From positions 1,116,001 to 1,180,000 of the forward strand of contig NZ_CP101153.1 in assembly GCF_024298825.1 (NCBI RefSeq): a stretch of 64,000 nt of DNA, written 5' to 3'. The stretch comes from Haloglomus salinum. Lineage in GTDB: Archaea > Halobacteriota > Halobacteria > Halobacteriales > Haloarculaceae. Positions 29,784 to 39,358 of this stretch are shown one piece after another (position 1 is the first letter of the stretch; each line of letters starts with the position of its first letter). The position numbers and the translations under genes are program-made. A model generated the notes under the pieces. It did no database searches, had not been told where the DNA came from, and saw only the letters and a program-made list of their open reading frames with translations.

Positions 29784-29942
29784 TCAGCGCAGAATCGTGG
29801 GCATGCCGATGCCTGTCGCGGACAGCACGACGAACGACACGAGGAGATAGACGAGTAACACCAGCACGTTGCGCTTGTGCGTTCCAGGGGCCATCCCCGG
29901 GACGAGGGCAGCGATGGATGGATTGGGAATCCGGAGGAGCAT
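29784..29942 (-). CDS. Small membrane protein at the end of the SipW cluster
   Basis: A 52-residue protein. A short N-terminus with NPSIAALVPGMAPGTHKRNV precedes one long hydrophobic segment (about 29-48). ATG 29942 lies only 7 bp after the stop of the preceding gene, so it is probably the last cistron of the cluster. It is weakly charged at both ends. It might be an anchor or accessory for the signal peptidase; no motif says so. Confidence 0.5.
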   Translation of the reverse strand: MLLRIPNPSIAALVPGMAPGTHKRNVLVLLVYLLVSFVVLSATGIGMPTILR

Positions 29943-29949
29943 CCGGCGA

Positions 29950-30336
29950 TCAGCCCGATTCGGTGATCTGCTCGCCACCGTCGGGGGACTCCGGCATCGG
30001 TGTCGGCGAGTCGGTGGCCGTGGGGGTCGGGGTCGAAGCCGTGCCGGTCTTCGTCTCGGTGTCGCCTGTCACGGTGCCCGTCTCGGTCGCCGGCGATTCC
30101 GGGGGTGGAGTCGGAGTCGGAGCGGTGATGGAGGAACCCTTACCGCCCGACTCCTCGGCGAACACCGAGACGCCGGAAGTACCGCTGTTGCCGCCGCCGG
30201 ACCCCCCGAGCGCGGACGCGTCGATGGTGACCGACACCTCCTCCTCATCGGTGAACGCGGCGTAGGTGTGTCCGCCAGCGATGCTCAGCCCGAACACCAG
30301 CACGACCACCAGGACGGCCCTTCGGCGGTCAGTCAT
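29950..30336 (-). CDS. SipW-type leader protein with Thr/Pro-rich tail
   Basis: A 128-residue exported protein. After a basic start (MTDRRR) a hydrophobic leader ends in TYAAFTDEEEV, the same pattern (small residue, then F-S/T/G-D-T/E-E) that marks cleavage in TasA/camelysin family proteins. The mature part is short: a beta stretch followed by Gly/Ser and then a tail rich in Pro, Thr and Glu (about 70-125), probably glycosylated or disordered. It overlaps the signal peptidase gene by 8 bp (30329-30336), so it is part of the operon. Possibly a minor fibre subunit or anchor. Confidence 0.7.
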   Translation of the reverse strand: MTDRRRAVLVVVLVFGLSIAGGHTYAAFTDEEEVSVTIDASALGGSGGGNSGTSGVSVFAEESGGKGSSITAPTPTPPPESPATETGTVTGDTETKTGTASTPTPTATDSPTPMPESPDGGEQITESG

Positions 30337-31780
30337 CCGAACCACCCCCGCGGACGGCGGATAGTCGCCGATAGACGAATCGAGTCGGCTCTACGACCGC
30401 GTACCCGACGTAGTAGAGCAGGACGAACGGGACCGCGATCAGCGGGTTCTTCGACGGGGGCTGTGCCCCCCCGCGGCCCGTCTCCTCCGTCTCGGCTGTC
30501 GGAGTACTATCGGCGGGTCCGTCCACGGGCGGACCCGATAGCGAATCCAGGTCGACAGGTACGATAGCCGGTTCCAGCTGGTCGGGCGTGACGACTGGTG
30601 CCGGAGCAGGGGCCGACTCCGCCTCGGAGACTGCCGGTTCGGTGGTCCCGGTCGGCGACCGGGGCACGACCACATCGGCGCCGTCTCGGCCGGGAGCCGC
30701 CTCTCCGGGCACCGCTCCATCGAGCGGTTCCCCGAAGACGGGGCCGTCGGTCCCCGTCCGGAGAGTTCCGGCGCCTCGCACGGCAGCTCGCTCGGTCCCG
30801 CCATCGTGGACCGCCTCGTGACGACGCTCTGATGTCCTCGCGGCGGTGGCGGGGACGGTCGCCGGAGCATCGGCGCCCGACCGCGTTTCCGTCTCGGGTG
30901 GTGAGCCCCCGAACAGGTACATCGCCCCGACGAGGACGAGCGTCGCGCCAACGGTCGTGGCGCCCGTCACGGCCCAGACCTCCAGGGTCGCGTAGGCCAC
31001 CCACACGGCGTACGCCGTGAACAGGAACAGGACTCCGACCGTCAGCCGGAGGTCCATCGGGGTCAGCGTGAACCCGCCGTCCTCGTTCGCCGCGTCGGCG
31101 GGCGCGGCGTCCCCGTCGGCTGTCGCCGCCGTGGTTCCGGTCGTCGCTATGGGGTCGGGCTCGGTGGACGCACCCGGTTCGGGGTCGCCCGGCTCCTCGC
31201 TGGCGCCGTCCCCGCCGCGACTGGACCGCACGAGCACGTACGCCTCCGAGAGTACCAGCAACACCAGCGGCGCGACGAGGAGCGTGAGGATTCCCGTGGT
31301 GGTCCCGGCGAACTGGATGACGTAGCCGACCAGCGGGATGACGAACAGGTGGCCCCCGACGGTCGGCACCACACCGCGGACCTGGTCGGCAGTCACCAGT
31401 GCCGGGTCGGGGTCCTCGTTCGCGTCCCCCGCGGTCCGGAACGCGAGCCCCTGCTCGGTCTCGACCACCTCGATGACCCGGTGGGTCGTCGGTCGCGTCT
31501 CGCCCGCCGCCGCGAAGGTCACCACGTCGCCCGCCGAGATGGTCGACGGCGGCGCCGCGTCGACGACGATGACATCGCCCGCACTCATCGCCGGCTCCAT
31601 GCTCCCCGAGAGCACGACGTAGCTCGCGTCGGCGCCGACGACGCCCGGCACTGCGTAGACGACGAACGGCAGGACGAGGGCGACGACGAGGAGTGTCCCC
31701 ACCACCGACAGTAGCCGCCGCCAGGGTACTGATCCGAGCACGTCGTCGCCGCCGTCACGTTCGAGTTCGGTGTCTGTCAT
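30329..31780 (-). CDS. Signal peptidase I, SipW/ER type, with a long C-terminal extension
   Basis: A 483-residue membrane peptidase that should cut the leaders of the adjacent TasA-like proteins. The catalytic core is at residues about 20-150: a helix, then SGSMEP with nucleophile Ser60, GDVIVVD, His100 in THRVIEV and Asp119/Asp123 in FRTAGDANEDPD. A His in place of Lys marks the ER/SipW type. After a second helix (about 165-190) the protein goes on for nearly 300 residues with two more helices, a Pro/Thr/Glu-rich stretch and a final helix (PLIAVPFVLLYYVGY). Ordinary SipW has about 190 residues, so the extension is unusual. Its start overlaps the previous gene in an ATGA. Confidence 0.88.
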   Translation of the reverse strand: MTDTELERDGGDDVLGSVPWRRLLSVVGTLLVVALVLPFVVYAVPGVVGADASYVVLSGSMEPAMSAGDVIVVDAAPPSTISAGDVVTFAAAGETRPTTHRVIEVVETEQGLAFRTAGDANEDPDPALVTADQVRGVVPTVGGHLFVIPLVGYVIQFAGTTTGILTLLVAPLVLLVLSEAYVLVRSSRGGDGASEEPGDPEPGASTEPDPIATTGTTAATADGDAAPADAANEDGGFTLTPMDLRLTVGVLFLFTAYAVWVAYATLEVWAVTGATTVGATLVLVGAMYLFGGSPPETETRSGADAPATVPATAARTSERRHEAVHDGGTERAAVRGAGTLRTGTDGPVFGEPLDGAVPGEAAPGRDGADVVVPRSPTGTTEPAVSEAESAPAPAPVVTPDQLEPAIVPVDLDSLSGPPVDGPADSTPTAETEETGRGGAQPPSKNPLIAVPFVLLYYVGYAVVEPTRFVYRRLSAVRGGGSDD

Positions 31781-32763
31781 TCTTCGCACCCCTTCGATTC
31801 CGGCGTCTGGAACGTTCTCTCGTACTTCAGCCCGCACATGCCGGGGCACGGTTCCGAGTTTGTCCGGCCGCTGCCGGGAAACGAGTTGCCGCTCTTGTCG
31901 TAGGTCGTCCCGCCCGTCGCCGTGGTGAAGGTGCCCGACGTACCTGGGTCGGTGAAGACCCGAATCTCGGGGCCGTACTTCAGCACCACGGTCTCCAGCG
32001 TCGACGGTGCGCTCGTCAGGTCGAGGGTGTCCCCGCTCACGGTGAACACCAGGTCGCCGTCCGTCAGGGTCTCTCCGTCCGCCGCGCAGAACGCGACCCA
32101 GCTGATATCCTTCCCCGACGACACGGGACACGACAGCGGCTCGTACGGGTTCGTCGGTGCGTCGTTGTTGCGACACTGCTCGGCGAAGAACTCCAGGTCG
32201 AAGTCCGTCTCGTCGAACTCCGCGGAGTCCTCGGTGTACTCCCACCCGACGAGGAGGTATCGAGTCGTGTCCGCGTCCAGACATCCGTCGTCGCCGAACT
32301 GGAGCTTCGTTCCCGGCTGTTCGGCGAGGTCACGGAGGGTCCGGCCGTCGATGGCCACTCCGTCGGCGTCCAGGACGTGGTCGCCTGGCGTCCCCTGTGC
32401 GTCGGCGTAGCGGACGGAGAGTTCCAGCGCGTCGGCGAGCCCGGCTGCGGATTCGGGCGGACAGGTCGGCTGGAACCAGACGTGCGCCGGGTTGTTCTCC
32501 GAACCCGGGAGCGAGATATCCAGAAGCTCCTGTCCGCTCGTGTTGCCCGTCTCGAGCTTCGCAGTCAGGTTCTCGCCGTCGGTGTTGTTCCAGGCGACAT
32601 CCAGCTCTAACGAGCCGCTCTCGAACAGGCCACTGAAGGACTCCTCGTCCCGGAGGAGCGCCGCGCTCCCGACGCCGCCGACGACCCCGAGCCCGCCCGC
32701 CCCAGCCGCGGCTGCCAGTACCTTCCGGCGGGCGATTCCCCGGTCGCCGTCATCGTTGGTCAT
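31777..32763 (-). CDS. SipW-dependent TasA-like exported protein
   Basis: A 328-residue exported protein. The leader IARRKVLAAAAGAG resembles a Tat/SipW signal and ends with the cleavage-type motif ALLRDEESF. The mature part is a beta-rich camelysin/TasA-like domain with the conserved DLEFFAEQCRNND motif seen in the other members here, and five or more cysteines near the C-terminus (CPGMCGLKYE). ATG 32763 replaces an upstream ATG at 32817, which would add a hydrophilic stretch before the leader. It overlaps the signal peptidase by 4 bp (ATGA), so both are made together. Confidence 0.78.
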   Translation of the reverse strand: MTNDDGDRGIARRKVLAAAAGAGGLGVVGGVGSAALLRDEESFSGLFESGSLELDVAWNNTDGENLTAKLETGNTSGQELLDISLPGSENNPAHVWFQPTCPPESAAGLADALELSVRYADAQGTPGDHVLDADGVAIDGRTLRDLAEQPGTKLQFGDDGCLDADTTRYLLVGWEYTEDSAEFDETDFDLEFFAEQCRNNDAPTNPYEPLSCPVSSGKDISWVAFCAADGETLTDGDLVFTVSGDTLDLTSAPSTLETVVLKYGPEIRVFTDPGTSGTFTTATGGTTYDKSGNSFPGSGRTNSEPCPGMCGLKYERTFQTPESKGCEE

Positions 32764-33073
32764 CTTGTCCCCCCTCCGAGCGTCGGACCCCCCGGTCGTT
32801 CGGCTCTGCCGTGTCATGCGATGACCAATAGCATAAACCCCCTGAAAAGTAATTCATCAGACAGGTCGACCGCCCGAGCCGACTCTCGACCCTCTGGGCG
32901 TCTCTCGGCATGGAGGACCTGTTGCTCCGGCAGGGGTACTGCGCGCTCGACGGGTGCGGTCCCGCCGGGCATCGTCCGCCAGCCGATTCGTGTGTCATGT
33001 GTTGTGCCTCGTTCGAGGCCCACCGGCGGAGTCGAACCGCCGAGATGCCGAGCGTGGGTTGCGTTAAGCGTAC
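32764..33073. other. 310-bp gap with probable internal promoter and repeat copy A
   Basis: Two short overlapping minus-strand frames (32750-32998 and 32814-33023) show no protein-like composition and are not called. On the minus strand a TATA-like TTTATGC near 32833-32839 precedes the exported protein gene at 32763 by about 70 bp, so that gene and the signal peptidase may have their own promoter. The repeat copy A lies at the far end, near the next gene. Confidence 0.5.
33019..33059. repeat. T-arm-like repeat, copy A
   Basis: A 41-bp element beginning 14 bp after the stop of the beta-helix gene (minus strand). The core GGCGGTTCGACTCCGCC folds as a 5-bp stem with a 7-nt loop, identical in form to a tRNA T-arm. 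Flanking CCCA and TGGG can pair to enclose it. This copy differs from B and C at several positions in the middle. Confidence 0.7.
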
Positions 33074-34876
33074 CTACTGCGGGACGATTGCCTGGAGATA
33101 TGCCCCGAACGGCCCGCCCGACGTCACCGCCACGTCGTAGGAGTTGTCGGCGATGAACGTCCCGATTGGTGCGTTCCCGGTCTGATCGCCGAGGTAGAGC
33201 GGCGGGACGCTCGGGTTGTTGGTGTTGTTGACGCTGTTGTCGATGTTGCTGATGCTGTTCTCGAGCAGGGTCAGCTCCGTCGCAGCCCCCTTCAACTCAA
33301 CTCCGATATTGATATTGTTGATGGTATTGTTGCGGGCCAGGTAGTTCGGCCCGGTCGCATCAACGGCGCATCCAACGCCAAGATACTGAGTACTATCACT
33401 GGCGAGAACCGATGAGATATCGTTGTCGACGATGTCGACGTTCTTTGGGTCGACACCATGGTTACCGGTCCCGCGAATTATCACACCGAACGCATAGGAA
33501 TTGACCGGATTTCCGGACGTATCCACGCCTATCTCCTCAATTGTGTTACCCTTGACCGTCGCCCCATCCACGTTCCCCTGGATGCTGACTCCGGTCGAAC
33601 CACCAGAGACGGAGTTGTAGACGTTCCGGACCGTATTGTCCCGAACGGTCACGTTGTTGATTGTATCCGAAGGGGAGTTATCTTGACCGCCGAACACGTT
33701 GATTCCGTCCGTGCCGAAGAACCCGCTCGAACCGGGAGCACGACGAAAGTTCTCCACGATATTATTGACGATTGTCACGTCGTCCGGGCTGGGACTGACC
33801 CTGATTGCTTCGTCTTCCCCAGCGGTTGAAGTCGCATCCGGCGGCGAGACGGTGAACCCACAGAGGGTCGCCCCGTCCGCGCTCACGACGACCTGGTCGG
33901 TGATGGTCGTCGCGGCCGGGTCCCGCGAGAACAGCAGGAGGTCCGGCACGTCGACCGTCACCTGCTCAGCGTACGTCCCGGGTTTGACCATGATGACATC
34001 GCCGGGGGAGGCGGCGTCGATGGCAGCCTGGATGGAGTCGCCCGAGGAAACCACCGCGTCGACGAACGGGTTGGCCGGGTCGGGGTTGTTCCGCGCCTGC
34101 TGGGCGACGAACTGGAAGCTGAACTCGATGGCGTCGGACTGGATCTCGTTGCCGACGTCCGTCGGCACCTCCCACTCGATGCAGAGACACGGCCCCTGCT
34201 GGTCGTCGGCGCCGCTGGAGCCGGGATACGGCGTCGCCGAACCGTCGTCGTTCACCGGCTCGTCCCCGTCGAGCGGGAAGCCGGTCTCTAGCTCCTTCGA
34301 AAGGTCGGCCAGCGTGTAGTCGTCAGGATTGTTCAGCTCTCGGGGGTTGCTGCAGACCACCTGATCGCCGTCGAGACTCGCGCTCTCGGCATACGAGACC
34401 GTCACATCCATCGCACAGCTCAGATCGCCAGCGCCCGCGCCGTCGTTCGTCCCGTTCAGGCTGCCGCCGGGCGTGGCGTCGACGCCACCCTCCGGCTCGG
34501 TCTGTCCGTTCTCGTAGTCGGTCACACCGTCGGAACCGACCCAGAGCCACCCGGGATTCGTGACGAGCTTCGGGCAGAACACGAGCGTCCCGCTGTCGCC
34601 CGGCTTCACGTCCGAGACGGTGTAGTCGTACACCGTTGTCCCGTCGCCGTTGACCTCGCCGCTCTGGCTACTGGAGCCGAACGACCCCTGGTCCGTACTG
34701 GTGTAGTAGTCGACCACGAGGTCGAGCGTCCCCGCCTGCAAGATGTTGTCGTCGAACGATTCGGTGTCGCTGAACAGGGCGCTCGTGCCCAGTCCAGCGC
34801 CCGCTCCAGCGGCGCCCACCGTAGCGAGCCCCGCGAGTGCCTTCCGCCGCGTGAGTTCGAAGTCCCGGTCTGTCAT
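33074..34876 (-). CDS. SipW-dependent protein with a TasA-like domain and a parallel beta-helix
   Basis: A 600-residue exported protein. The leader LTRRKALAGLATVGAAGAG ends with ALFSDTESF and is nearly the same as that of the gene at 36707-37612. Residues about 35-280 form a camelysin-type beta domain ending with QFVAQQARNNPDPANPF. Residues about 290-600 form a right-handed beta-helix (pectin-lyase-like): it opens GDSIQAAIDAASPGDVIMV, the standard cap, followed by many NN-I and N-T-I turns. Such helices bind or cut polysaccharide. The combination suggests a fibre protein with a carbohydrate-binding or lyase head. No catalytic residues can be assigned. Confidence 0.78.
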   Translation of the reverse strand: MTDRDFELTRRKALAGLATVGAAGAGAGLGTSALFSDTESFDDNILQAGTLDLVVDYYTSTDQGSFGSSSQSGEVNGDGTTVYDYTVSDVKPGDSGTLVFCPKLVTNPGWLWVGSDGVTDYENGQTEPEGGVDATPGGSLNGTNDGAGAGDLSCAMDVTVSYAESASLDGDQVVCSNPRELNNPDDYTLADLSKELETGFPLDGDEPVNDDGSATPYPGSSGADDQQGPCLCIEWEVPTDVGNEIQSDAIEFSFQFVAQQARNNPDPANPFVDAVVSSGDSIQAAIDAASPGDVIMVKPGTYAEQVTVDVPDLLLFSRDPAATTITDQVVVSADGATLCGFTVSPPDATSTAGEDEAIRVSPSPDDVTIVNNIVENFRRAPGSSGFFGTDGINVFGGQDNSPSDTINNVTVRDNTVRNVYNSVSGGSTGVSIQGNVDGATVKGNTIEEIGVDTSGNPVNSYAFGVIIRGTGNHGVDPKNVDIVDNDISSVLASDSTQYLGVGCAVDATGPNYLARNNTINNINIGVELKGAATELTLLENSISNIDNSVNNTNNPSVPPLYLGDQTGNAPIGTFIADNSYDVAVTSGGPFGAYLQAIVPQ

Positions 34877-34899
34877 GATTACCCCCCAGTCGGGAGAGG

Positions 34900-34941
34900 C
34901 CCACCGGCGGAGTCGAACCGCCGTGATGCACCAGCGTGGGT
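34900..34941. repeat. T-arm-like repeat, copy B
   Basis: A 42-bp element, identical to copy C at 41 of 42 positions. It starts about 33 bp after the stop of the vWA gene and ends about 23 bp before the ATG of the beta-helix gene, both on the minus strand. A second small hairpin (TGC-TGGT-GCA type) lies beside the T-arm-like stem. No coding frame runs through it. Confidence 0.75.
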
Positions 34942-34973
34942 GGGTCGCGGATGAGGGGACGTTCGGCTCGGAG

Positions 34974-36614
34974 CTACTCGGTCGATATCGGCGTCGAGGC
35001 TCCGTTGTTCCGGCATTGCTCGGTGTAGAAGCCGAGATCGAACGCCACCGAGTCGCTCTGGACCAGATTCCCGACCTCCGCCGGGAGCTCCCACCGGAAG
35101 CCGAGACACTGCGTCATCTCGGGCATGTAGCAGCTCCGCACCTCCGTGATGCGGTTGGCATCGAGTGGAATCCCGTCCCCGTCCGACAGTTTAGTCAGCG
35201 CCTCCGCGAGCGTCCCCTCGAAGAACGCCTCCTCCGGGAGGAAGAGCAGCGCGACCTGCTGGAACAGCTGTGGGATGGAGTTCGAGTCGGTCAGTTCGAA
35301 CAGGTAGCTCGCGTCGCCGCCGCCCGAGTCGGCGGGGCCCGCCATGGATTCGAGGAGGTCCTGAGCGTCCGCATTGCTCGTCTGATCGCCGATGACGTAC
35401 AGGTCCGTGGCGGGAGCTGGATCGTCGCTACGGGCGTCGTCGGCCGCACCCTCCACGCCATCGAAGTACGACTGCTGGAGCGAGCCGCCGCGGTAGGGCT
35501 CACCGTCGGTGAAGACGACGTTGACCGCCCCCACCCCACGACCGTTATTGTCGAGTTCCTGCTGGGCCTGCTCGATGCCCGGCTCCAGCGCCGTCCCGGT
35601 GCTGATGCCACCGCCGTCGCTCGGGGTCGGGCCGCCGCCGGTGAGGGTGGCGACGGTGTCTCGGAAGTTCCCGAGCGTCGAGCGCAGGTTCGATGGGGTG
35701 TCGAGCCCGAACAGCTGGGTCTGCGGGTGGTCGAGGGTTCCGTCGTCGGGGTCGAAGCCGTCGAAGAACAGCACGCCGACCTCGATGTTCACGTCCCCGC
35801 CGGCGTCGACGAGCGCGTCGAGGAACTGGCGGACCCCCCGCTCGACGAGGTCGATCTTCGTCGTCTCGGACCGCGTGTCACCGCCGACGGTGATTGGGTC
35901 GTCGCTGACGACACCGCCGTACTGGTCGTAGAACATCGATCCGGAGGCGTCGAGGGTGAACATGATATCGGCGTCCTCTCCCCCGCCGAGGCCGTTGTCG
36001 CAGTCCCGGTCGTACCACATTTCGACCTCGATGTTCTCGGCGAGTTCACCCCGGCCGTCCGGGTCGTCCGGGTCGATGTCGCCATCCTCCGAGGATGTCG
36101 GCTCCGGCTCCGTGTAGCCCCGCTCGGAGTTCGAAACCTCCGCGCCCTGCATCCAGATGTAGCCAGGATTGTCACAGAGGTGGAGGCTGAACGTAATCTC
36201 GCCGGAGTCGCCGGGCTTGACGTCGGTCAGCTCCACGAGCGACCCCTGCTCGCCGGCGCCGTCGAAGTCGTAGTCGTCGTCGAACGCCGGCGTGTCGCAG
36301 GTGAGATACTCGACGAGGTTCCGCTCCGTGTACTCGACCGCGTACTCCTCGGTCGGGTGGAGGACCGACTGGCGTCCGTCCCCATCGTGGTCCGGGTGGG
36401 CGTTGACGTACATGGGGTCGCCGGCCCCGTCGTAGGTCTGTTGCCAGTCGACCAGGAGGTCGAGATTGCCGGCCGCGAGCGTGTTGCCGACGAACTCCTC
36501 GGTGTCGCCGAACAGCGCACTCGTGCCGAAGCCCGCGCCGAGGCCGGCCGCGCCGACCGCCCCCAGTGCTCCGAGCACCTTCCGTCGCGTGATGTCGATT
36601 TTACGGTTGCTCAT
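34974..36614 (-). CDS. SipW-dependent protein with von Willebrand factor A domain
   Basis: A 546-residue exported protein. The leader ITRRKVLGALGAVGAAGLG ends with ALFGDTEEF. A camelysin-like beta domain (about 35-210) is interrupted by a vWA domain (about 215-480). This starts with DADIMFTLDASGSM, the MIDAS motif DxSxS that binds a divalent ion, and includes VVFTDGEPYRGG. The TasA-like part resumes with QSDSVAFDLGFYTEQCRNN near the C-terminus. vWA domains hold partners through metal-dependent contacts, so this could be an adhesive or cross-linking subunit. Insertion of one domain inside another is an inference from the motif order. Confidence 0.82.
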   Translation of the reverse strand: MSNRKIDITRRKVLGALGAVGAAGLGAGFGTSALFGDTEEFVGNTLAAGNLDLLVDWQQTYDGAGDPMYVNAHPDHDGDGRQSVLHPTEEYAVEYTERNLVEYLTCDTPAFDDDYDFDGAGEQGSLVELTDVKPGDSGEITFSLHLCDNPGYIWMQGAEVSNSERGYTEPEPTSSEDGDIDPDDPDGRGELAENIEVEMWYDRDCDNGLGGGEDADIMFTLDASGSMFYDQYGGVVSDDPITVGGDTRSETTKIDLVERGVRQFLDALVDAGGDVNIEVGVLFFDGFDPDDGTLDHPQTQLFGLDTPSNLRSTLGNFRDTVATLTGGGPTPSDGGGISTGTALEPGIEQAQQELDNNGRGVGAVNVVFTDGEPYRGGSLQQSYFDGVEGAADDARSDDPAPATDLYVIGDQTSNADAQDLLESMAGPADSGGGDASYLFELTDSNSIPQLFQQVALLFLPEEAFFEGTLAEALTKLSDGDGIPLDANRITEVRSCYMPEMTQCLGFRWELPAEVGNLVQSDSVAFDLGFYTEQCRNNGASTPISTE

Positions 36615-36637
36615 GTCATCGCCCCCTCCGGGCAGGA

Positions 36638-36679
36638 CCCACCGGCGGAGTCGAACCGCCGTGATGCACCAGCATGGGT
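36638..36679. repeat. T-arm-like repeat, copy C
   Basis: A 42-bp element that starts about 28 bp after the stop of the short TasA-like gene and ends about 24 bp before the ATG of the vWA gene. The outer pairing is best here: GACCCA on one side and TGGGTC on the other give six pairs around the 5-bp T-arm-like stem (minus strand). Confidence 0.75.
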
Positions 36680-36706
36680 CGGCCTACCGCCACCTCGAAC
36701 TCGGCG

Positions 36707-37612
36707 CTATGTGCCTCCCCCGGACGGGTCTCCCGGGCTCCCGGACTCGAACGGCCACTCGGCGTCGTCGAGCGGGCTCGGCGGGTCGTTGTTCCGGGCC
36801 TGCTCGGCCTCCCAGCCGAAGTCGAACTGCACGGAGTCGCTCTGGATCTCGTTGCCGACCGTGTCGGGAATCTCGAACCGCGTGTAGTTGGTCACGCAGC
36901 CGACATCCGGGTTCAGGCCGGAGGTGGTCCCGTTCGCGCCACCGATCTTGGTCGGGTCGGTGAAGCCACCCTCTCCGGACTCCAGGTCCCCGTGCCCGTC
37001 TCCTCCCCGGTAGATGATGCCGGTACTCAGGGCGCCGAGGTAGCTCTGCAGGCTCTGTGTCGCGAACTCGACCGTGCCGCCCCCACCGCTTGTCCAGTCA
37101 CCCTCGTAGACGGTGACCTCGACGTTCTGTGCCAGCTCCCCGCTCCCGTCGATGTCGCCGTCCGGGTCGACAGTGGAGTTGTTGGGGTCGTCACCGGCCT
37201 CGGGTTCGGTCACGGAGTTCTCGTCGTTGCTGTCGAGACCGCCCACGCCCTGCACGTAGCCCGCGTTGCCCTCGATACAGACCGCCTGCCTGATGACGAA
37301 CCAGTCGCCGGGCTTCGCGTCGGCGATCGCGAAGCTGACCTCGTCACCGTCGAAGGTGTAGCTCTCACCCGGCTCGATGGAGTTCCCATTCCCCCAGGTC
37401 AGTCCGGCGGCAGCGAACTCGTCGCTGGTCTCGACGAGTTCCAGCTCCACCGTCATGTTCAGCGTCCCCGCGGTGATCGAGTTGTCCTCGAACGATTCCG
37501 TGTCGCTGAACAGGGCACTCGTGCCCAGTCCAGCGCCCGCCCCCGCGGCCCCCACAGTTGCGAGCCCCGCGAGCGCCTTCCGCCGCGTCAGTTGATAGCG
37601 TTCGTCTGTCAT
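36707..37612 (-). CDS. SipW-dependent TasA-like protein
   Basis: A 301-residue exported protein and first gene of the cluster. The leader LTRRKALAGLATVGAAGAG with ALFSDTESF marks a SipW-type signal, and its DNA matches that of the beta-helix gene at about 34757-34855 over nearly 100 bp. The mature part is one camelysin/TasA-like domain with two acidic Asn-rich segments and ends QSDSVQFDFGWEAEQARNND. It has no extra domain, so it is the best candidate for the main fibre subunit. ATG 37612 was chosen; the upstream ATG at 37669 would put a non-hydrophobic tail before the leader. Confidence 0.8.
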   Translation of the reverse strand: MTDERYQLTRRKALAGLATVGAAGAGAGLGTSALFSDTESFEDNSITAGTLNMTVELELVETSDEFAAAGLTWGNGNSIEPGESYTFDGDEVSFAIADAKPGDWFVIRQAVCIEGNAGYVQGVGGLDSNDENSVTEPEAGDDPNNSTVDPDGDIDGSGELAQNVEVTVYEGDWTSGGGGTVEFATQSLQSYLGALSTGIIYRGGDGHGDLESGEGGFTDPTKIGGANGTTSGLNPDVGCVTNYTRFEIPDTVGNEIQSDSVQFDFGWEAEQARNNDPPSPLDDAEWPFESGSPGDPSGGGT

Positions 37613-37981: not shown

Positions 37982-38524
37982 ATGAAGGTACTACCGACAT
38001 ACAACAACGGCATCGACAGGGGTGAGGTGCACGAGATACTCCGGAACGACCGGCGTCGCGCGACGGTCGAGGTGCTCCGGGCGAAGCTGGGGTCGGTCTC
38101 GCTGCGGAATCTCTCGGAGGCAATCGCCGAGCGCGAGGCCGGCGAGTCGCCGCCACCGCGCAAGGTCCGGCAGAGCGTCTACAACTCGTTGCACCAGACG
38201 CATCTCCCGAAACTCGACGAGCGGGGCGTCATCGAGTACGACCGGGACCGGAAGACGGTCCAGCTCGAGGAGGGGGCGCGTCACGTGTACGTCCACATGG
38301 AGGTCGTCAACGAGTACGGCATCACGTGGGCGGACTACTACCGCTCGCTGGGCGTGCTCGCGCTGATGACCGTTGTCGCCGCCGGCCTCGGGACGCCGTT
38401 CCTGTCGTCGGTCGAGCCGATGCTCATCGCGAGCGTCTTCCTCGTACTTTTCGCGCTCTCGACGGCCCGCCAGCTGTGGGTCAACCGCTGGCTCTACCTC
38501 CGGGCACTCCTCCCGGACGAGTAG
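37982..38524 (+). CDS. Membrane-anchored winged-helix regulator (DUF7344 type)
   Basis: A 180-residue protein. Residues about 10-100 form a winged helix of the haloarchaeal DUF7344 kind: EVHEILRNDRRRATVEVLR, then LRNLSEAIAEREAG and VYNSLHQTHLPKLDERGVIE, which is the recognition-helix and wing part. Two hydrophobic helices follow (about 125-145 and 150-170). Relatives are often placed next to the surface or pilus genes they control. Here it is divergent from the SipW cluster with a shared control region, so it is the likely regulator. The family name is from memory. Confidence 0.75.
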   Translation: MKVLPTYNNGIDRGEVHEILRNDRRRATVEVLRAKLGSVSLRNLSEAIAEREAGESPPPRKVRQSVYNSLHQTHLPKLDERGVIEYDRDRKTVQLEEGARHVYVHMEVVNEYGITWADYYRSLGVLALMTVVAAGLGTPFLSSVEPMLIASVFLVLFALSTARQLWVNRWLYLRALLPDE

Positions 38525-38550: not shown

Positions 38551-39210
38551 TCACCCGTCGCCGAGCAGCGCCCCCATCACCTTCGTCTCCGCGTTCCGGA
38601 GGTGGTGGCCGACGGTCCCCGCCGCGCAGTCGACGGCGGCCGCCACGTCCTCGTAGGTCGCCTCGCGCGGGTTCCGGTAGTAGCCGAGCTCGACGGCGGC
38701 CCGGAGCGTCTCGCGCTCCCGGGGCGTCAGCCGCGCCAGGAGCCGGTCGGACCCCGGCCGGTACTCCCCCGTCCGCTCGACCTGTACCTGGACCCCCGCC
38801 GGGACCGCGTCGATAGCGCCCTGGAGTTCGGCGTCGTCACCCACCAGCGTCAGCACGACCTCGCGCCCGTCGACGAGACGGATGGGCCAGTCGACGACCA
38901 CCGTCCACTCGTCGAGGACGCCGAGGATGGCGGCCGTCATCGCGCTCGGGGTCGTGTTGGCGTACATCAGCTGCCGGCCACTCAGCTCGGTCACCTGCCA
39001 GCTCACCGCCCCGTCGAGGCGGTCGGCCGCGAGCCGCTCGGCCATCGTCCGGTCGCCCGTGTACTCGTACAGCAGCACCGAGGAGCCGTCGGCCAGGAGT
39101 CGCAGGGCGTGAACGGCCCGGATGGAGATATCGTCGGCCTCGGCAGCGGCGCGATGGAACGGGCCGAACCACCCCCGTTCGGGCTGGATACGGACCCGGA
39201 TGGCCCTCAT
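38551..39210 (-). CDS. HTH_10 (bacterio-opsin activator type) regulator
   Basis: A 219-residue protein with an N-terminal sensor-like domain (about 1-150) and a C-terminal HTH_10 domain: LTPRERETLRAAVELGYY, then REATYEDVAAAVDCAAGTV, the signature of the haloarchaeal Bat-type regulators. ATG 39210 (MRAIRVRIQPE) is preferred; a longer start at 39231 is also possible. The target cannot be deduced. It converges with the DUF7344 gene. Confidence 0.85.
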   Translation of the reverse strand: MRAIRVRIQPERGWFGPFHRAAAEADDISIRAVHALRLLADGSSVLLYEYTGDRTMAERLAADRLDGAVSWQVTELSGRQLMYANTTPSAMTAAILGVLDEWTVVVDWPIRLVDGREVVLTLVGDDAELQGAIDAVPAGVQVQVERTGEYRPGSDRLLARLTPRERETLRAAVELGYYRNPREATYEDVAAAVDCAAGTVGHHLRNAETKVMGALLGDG

Positions 39211-39358
39211 ACGCCGCCGCTCATCGTCCATCCGCAAGAAACCCCCGGCGCCAGCCGACATAACTCGGGGCATCGAGCCGGCTGCTGACGGTCGGTGATG
39301 GGGGGCTCACATCTGAGACCGAAACTACTCCCCCGAATGAGTACCGTCAACTGGTGGC

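Follow-up and report, generated by a model that had tools for sequence, protein, structure and literature searches.

Genes of a single transcript can be set apart by tRNA-shaped signals, as in mitochondrial tRNA punctuation and in the RNase P cuts made in bacterial operons. In haloarchaea, the tRNase Z of Haloferax volcanii is described as processing the 5' end of the 5S rRNA precursor at a tRNA-like structure (PMC3296008, citing Hoelzle et al. 2008), and both RNase P and tRNase Z of Haloferax cut tRNA-like elements put into transcripts (PMC4946936). As to surface fibres, the closest described systems are Bacillus TasA/SipW, the Natrinema J7-2 'Tafi' pilus, a haloarchaeal pilus present in the PDB (9p0a), and the Pyrobaculum bundling pili (7ueg), which are among the published TasA-like archaeal pili (cited in PMC9674648). 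Here we report on a gene cluster of Haloglomus salinum, located at positions 29784–37612 of a 64,000-nt window (contig NZ_CP101153.1, positions 1,116,001 to 1,180,000), and on a tRNA-like RNA element repeated between its genes. All genes of the cluster lie on the - strand and follow one another, in the direction of transcription, as A, B, C, D, signal peptidase, E and a 52-aa open reading frame (ORF). The cluster appears to be a haloarchaeal TasA-type surface-fibre operon, and the element probably serves tRNase Z as a processing site at which the operon mRNA is divided.

A repeat search of the window retrieved a 34-nt repeat upstream of genes B, C and D; no tRNA-like element precedes gene A. 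Read on the - strand, the sequence is ACCCAYGCT(N)GG..CAC-GGCGG-TTCGACT-CCGCC-GGTGGGY, i.e., a T-arm with the canonical TTCRANY loop, flanked by both strands of an acceptor-like helix, and folding prediction agrees with this arrangement. The architecture is that of a tRNA T-arm with its coaxial acceptor stem (6+6 = 12 bp) and a D-loop-like GG, D and anticodon arms not being fixed. Searches of Rfam 15 with the window cluster and five other loci placed the element in no known RNA family and returned no tRNA, even with E relaxed to 10, and no tRNA was called at the window elements by either ARAGORN or Rfam RF00005. A few relatives with long linkers were called by ARAGORN as odd tRNAs (e.g., 'tRNA-???'). 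A copy of an ordinary tRNA was considered and rejected, the closest T-arm in the genome being that of tRNA-Val(CAC), which has a different acceptor stem. The element is absent from Rfam 15 and from the open papers found and is apparently undescribed; in the open literature, subscription journals being outside the scope, no paper was found that names DUF1102, that treats SipW in haloarchaea or that links both TasA and signal peptidase with Halobacteria. Compared with mitochondrial punctuation and the RNase P cuts of bacterial operons, the signal here is not a tRNA but a reduced element, dedicated to operons of surface-fibre genes.

The pairing is maintained by compensatory changes. A first alignment of 24 elements, selected partly by visible pairing and hence biased, was the basis of a covariance model. 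Two alignments of new hits are fairer, yet fitted to the model: two-sided (compensatory) changes were found in 7/11 pairs (50 cells) among the 97 hits of alignment A3 and in 9/11 pairs (109 cells) among the 121 hits of alignment A5 (0/500 shuffles in either case). Moreover, 96% of the A5 cells were paired, against at most 57% in slid controls. Among 203 distinct elements, the loop reads TTCGACT or TTCGATT in 186 and the T-stem is lengthened by a C-G pair in 166, so that 6+6 = 12 pairs are stacked, the same number as in tRNA; a GG stands at linker positions 4-5 in most (fixed positions in 183 and 157 elements). The linker measures 8–18 nt in about half of the elements and is longer in the rest, often with an extra hairpin; a helix of 5 bp or more was predicted in 77% of the longer linkers and in 57% of their shuffles.

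The exact T-arm (the GGCGGTTCGACTCCGCC hairpin) occurs five times in the H. salinum genome, three times in the cluster described here and twice at 1.81 Mb, where another operon for SipW substrates lies. In this second operon (C1:1807129-1812957; locus L006 7246-12957, - strand) the T-arm element stands before two genes, with a less clear pairing of the acceptor helix and scores of 28–29 bits. A reversed control pattern gave 0 matches in all 146 genomes of the family. In 20 regions of other family genomes, almost all matches precede a fibre-type gene, with a leader of either the SipW or the DUF1102-like class, and 40 further regions from other families showed the same pattern, the first genes of the arrays being without the element. 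The covariance model found matches in many Halobacteriales and none in the other orders of the phylum sampled; its genome tally (116/242) includes leaders of 5S rRNA and so is no count of operons, which leaves the zero outside the order unaffected.

To remove ascertainment bias, 76 loci were picked by protein alone. In these, 99 T-arm hairpins lie in the 150 nt that precede the starts of fibre genes (33 kb in total) and 36 in the other 1.83 Mb, corresponding to a density 151 times that found elsewhere in the same DNA. All 99 are in sense orientation and none is antisense, and seven permuted loops gave 0 occurrences upstream of fibre genes. A strict T-arm was found before 90/126 internal genes with gaps of 50–900 nt and before 9/83 first genes (Fisher p 5e-19, p-values being descriptive since the sets share loci in some genomes and relatedness makes the genomes non-independent), and at least one T-arm was present in 57 of the 63 loci having such gaps.

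Other features were seen around these sites. In L132-L207, 71/90 element-bearing internal genes and 20/74 first genes have a small CCC..GGG hairpin in the 45 nt upstream of the start codon; once the message is cleaved, this hairpin could hide or free the ribosome site. In one fibre-gene array with intergenic regions of ~300 nt (L110, genome G151), the gaps are mostly without T-arm and another shared motif, CTTTGCAAAGG ... GGGTGTGAGAACA, stands before the start codons. The same 17-nt T-arm also occurs beside short provirus-like genes (L042 6798-6814, + strand), possibly as an attachment-site fragment, and was set aside.

The covariance model, trained on operon elements alone, returned a sixth match in the H. 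salinum genome, at 1222035-1222083 on the - strand (41.9 bits; L214). This match lies directly 5' of a 5S rRNA gene and reads CCGAT-ATTGGCATCAC-GACGG-TTCGATT-CCGTC-G-ATCGG-CG|TTAAGG. The 5S leader of a second genome (L130, G255) was matched as well, and a T-arm stands at a single constant distance before 5S in 79/145 Halobacteria genomes. Operon elements and 5S leader fit one covariance model, made of acceptor stem, T-arm and GG; the features shared with the haloarchaeal pre-5S leader are the acceptor stem, TTGGC, a T-arm with TTCGANT, the lack of D and anticodon arms, and a distance of 8 nt from T-arm to cut. The pre-5S leader serves the maturation of ribosomal RNA, whereas the operon element is placed between protein-coding genes, in many copies per operon and with an optional extra arm. 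The t-elements of Haloferax CRISPR RNA (crRNA) constructs likewise lie within a longer transcript, from which RNase P and tRNase Z release them (PMC4946936), but they are used as engineered crRNA flanks.

By transferring the 5S spacing to the operon, a cut was predicted 8 nt past the T-arm (GGTGGGYC|T...), which would produce leaders of ~20–23 nt. The first base after the predicted cut is T in 172/201 elements. Among the same 201 elements CCA, which blocks tRNase Z, is absent from the predicted cut but for one exception.

Because of the match with the 5S leader and its spacing, the Haloferax processing papers, the T following the predicted cut and the near-absence of CCA, we consider processing by tRNase Z to be the probable role of the element. 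One message would start from gene A and encode pilin-like subunits with SipW-type leaders together with a dedicated signal peptidase. Between successive subunit genes, this message would fold as a minimal tRNA mimic, in which an acceptor-like stem is stacked on the T-arm (12 bp), the GG can dock on the T-loop as G18-G19 do in tRNA and, in about half of the elements, there is an additional segment of variable kind or a hairpin. The shape would be recognised by tRNase Z as in pre-tRNA and in the pre-5S rRNA leader, and a cut 8 nt downstream of the T-arm would give each downstream gene a separate message with a leader of usually ~20 nt, the upstream message retaining a folded tRNA-like 3' end. 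Unequal subunit amounts might in this way be obtained from one promoter. On balance, we also favour the wider proposal that the elements form an order-wide family of reduced tRNA-like structures between pilin genes, cut by tRNase Z (perhaps by RNase P too) into single-gene messages that set the subunit ratios.

Some observations weigh against processing by tRNase Z. D and anticodon arms are missing and Rfam gives no tRNA match, so that recognition by tRNA enzymes is not assured. Taken singly, the window elements exceed their shuffles in folding by a modest margin only (z -0.4 to -1.3), and element 3 is ~250 nt away from gene D. Furthermore, ~30% of the internal gaps of 50–900 nt are without the strict hairpin; a variant loop, TTCGCGA, was found in 13 of these 36 gaps (L134, L139, L143, L149-L152, L161, L163, L184, L187, L193 and L205, mostly Halorubrum).

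It is unlikely that the element stays uncut and that its tRNA-like fold merely blocks exonucleases or separates the translation of neighbouring genes. Bacterial intercistronic hairpins do act in these ways, and the presence of a stable intergenic hairpin that is missing before the first gene, as well as the frequency of the CCC..GGG hairpin between element and start codon (71/90), would be in accordance with such a function. However, a plain hairpin needs no canonical T-loop, no fixed GG, no 12 stacked pairs and no 5S-leader spacing, all of which are found order-wide. Quite improbable is also a tRNA mimic that, bound by a regulator or a tRNA-modifying enzyme, would act on the translation of the gene downstream through binding instead of cleavage: T-loop and GG would indeed make a tRNA elbow, and the short hairpin near the start codon could be switched, but the distance to the start codon ranges from 12 to >100 nt, the 5S leader, which is shaped alike, is a substrate for processing, and we know of no regulator for such a mechanism. 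Since integrases often use tRNA T-arms, and tandem related genes with a repeat between them as well as one pattern match in a provirus-like region (L042) were observed, a DNA site was also considered, i.e., an integrase or recombination target resembling a tRNA T-arm, by which fibre genes would be shuffled or duplicated. This very remote alternative was rejected on account of covariation and strand bias, as compensatory changes in both stems, the strict sense orientation and the fixed place before start codons point to an RNA; moreover, the window showed no linked recombinase. Finally, an ordinary TasA-like operon with repeats left over from tandem gene duplication, as might be suggested by genes A, B and C, whose leaders and flanking sequences are similar at the DNA level, is barely credible, because the element covaries and separates genes in two fibre families, unrelated beyond the leader, in many genera.

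As regards the proteins, the initial annotation had proposed a SipW/ER-type signal peptidase among five exported TasA/camelysin-like substrates, each ending its leader with A-(L/A/F)-F-x-D-(T/E)-E. The peptidase was confirmed by TIGR02228 (100.6 bits, cut-off 51.85) and by alignment with solved SEC11 subunits (E 2e-12), including SEC11C, with SGSMEP, HRV and GDxNxD motifs matched; both marks of a SipW/archaeal signal peptidase I, namely a TIGR02228 score above cut-off and the Ser-His-Asp motifs, are therefore present. The leader motif was found in four of the five substrates (ALFSDTE in A and C, ALFGDTE in B, AAFTDEE in E) and not in D (ALLRDEE). With the SipW-leader model TIGR04088 (cut-off 19 bits), A (32.3 bits), C (25.5) and E (30.1) passed, while B (12.9 bits) and D (no match) did not. 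The Q(A/C)RNN motif attributed to four of the proteins is indeed carried by A, B, C and D, as QARNN or QCRNN, and in 30 homologues Q-x-R-(N/H)-N is nearly invariant and the leader motif strongly conserved. A profile built from 30 A-like proteins and used to test paralogy matched B (E 4e-49), C (4e-54) and D (3e-16); for E the match had a Prob of 19%, with the leader alone in common. The proposed five substrates thus comprise four paralogues, A–D, and one unrelated small protein, E, that has the leader. The leaders of A–D also hold a twin-arginine motif (TRRK/ARRK), and the subunits may therefore be exported folded by the twin-arginine (Tat) pathway rather than by Sec, before SipW cleavage.

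An AlphaFold2 model of A was obtained with 30 relatives (predicted local distance difference test, pLDDT, 70.7; leader disordered). Both structure searches ranked TasA first: Foldseek with 8aur (E 4e-4) and 5of1 (prob 1.0), and VIA-align 2 with Z 9.8 (157 residues at 3.3 A), 9.2 and 8.8 for Bacillus TasA, the next best reaching 6.2. Neither AbpA nor the thread pilins ranked high for A in VIA-align 2 (only 7pnb, at Z 4.9), an absence that does not speak for a different fold. A TasA-like jelly-roll is a fair reading for protein A, supported by this model, and B, C and D would be TasA-like because of their homology to A. The NCBIfam TasA model NF046066 did not match A–D and gave 12.8 bits for E (cut-off 450); A–D are therefore called TasA-like and not TasA. 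The camelysin half of the proposal was weak and was rejected, since PF12389 (Peptidase_M73) remained below its cut-off of 22.5 bits for A, B, C and E (13.5–15.6 bits) and gave no match for D.

A SipW-type peptidase, SipW-type leaders and, for protein A, the TasA jelly-roll are common to this cluster and to the Bacillus TasA/SipW system. The differences are the several paralogues with von Willebrand A (vWA) and beta-helix additions, the twin-arginine leaders and the RNA elements between genes; no TapA was recognised. The Natrinema Tafi and Pyrobaculum bundling pili also consist of archaeal pilins, but compared with Tafi the window proteins belong to another class, that of SipW substrates. For the second class of fibre genes that carry this RNA element, homology to the Tafi pilin 9p0a was found (E 3e-14), and only the leader can be aligned between the SipW and DUF1102-like classes. 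The system had been presented as one not known to be characterised, which is correct in part: operons of this type are common in haloarchaea, where they are routinely annotated with labels such as 'SipW-dependent...', 'vWA domain-containing' and 'signal peptidase I', annotated relatives keep the gene order (SipW-dependent protein, vWA proteins, hypothetical proteins, signal peptidase I), and TasA-like archaeal pili have been published. The protein part is one more instance of an already known kind of system.

Table 1. Genes and tRNA-like elements of the H. salinum cluster and its divergent neighbour (window positions).
Feature	Position	Strand	Description
DUF7344 (PF24035) gene	37982..38524	+	divergent, adjoins first fibre gene A
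gene A	36707..37612	-	301 aa, TasA-like exported protein; leader RRK...GTSALFSDTE; C-terminal QARNN; first gene of the operon
element 1 (A/B)	36631..36681	-	T-arm 36644-36660; predicted cut after GGTGGGTC; predicted new 5' end 36635, 21 nt before B start codon
gene B	34974..36614	-	546 aa, TasA-like with inserted vWA domain; QCRNN
element 2 (B/C)	34893..34943	-	T-arm 34906-34922; predicted new 5' end 34897, 21 nt before C start codon
gene C	33074..34876	-	600 aa, TasA-like with C-terminal right-handed beta-helix (NosD-like) domain; QARNN
element 3 (C/D)	33012..33061	-	T-arm 33025-33041; predicted new 5' end 33016
gene D	31777..32763	-	328 aa, divergent TasA-like paralogue; leader ALLRDEE; QCRNN
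sipW	30329..31780	-	SipW/SEC11-type signal peptidase, 483 aa, long C-terminal extension
gene E	29950..30336	-	128 aa, SipW-type leader AAFTDEE; otherwise unlike A-D
ORF	29784..29942	-	52-aa predicted membrane peptide (MLLRIPNPS...TILR); last in cluster

All the genes named in the initial annotation are on the - strand and inside the cluster (Table 1), and the overlaps it reported were found, one of 4 bp between D and sipW (ATGA, 31777-31780) and one of 8 bp between sipW and E (30329-30336). What it had overlooked was the repeated intercistronic element and the small ORF for a predicted membrane peptide at 29784-29942. A further small ORF after element 3 (32750-32998) was rejected as a gene, being truncated in locus L045 and read differently in L048. 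A homologue of the DUF7344 gene is present at 70/76 homologous loci, and its product, likely DNA-binding, is probably the regulator of the operon. Adjoining the DUF7344 gene, a bacterio-opsin-activator-like HTH_10 protein with an HVO_0513_N domain is encoded at 38551-39273 (- strand).

By its analogy with the 5S leader, the RNA element appears to be a tRNA-like processing element of pre-5S type, moved into mRNA and conserved across the order Halobacteriales. If this is true, it would represent tRNA punctuation of protein-coding operons in archaea, and tRNA-style processing would be extended from ribosomal and transfer RNA to mRNA in a whole archaeal order. The element also provides a searchable signature, by which pilin operons can be located in two families that share no sequence relation except in the leader, and the involvement of tRNase Z is directly testable in genetically tractable haloarchaea. 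For the fibres themselves, it would offer a concrete mechanism by which unequal amounts of subunits are obtained from a single operon.

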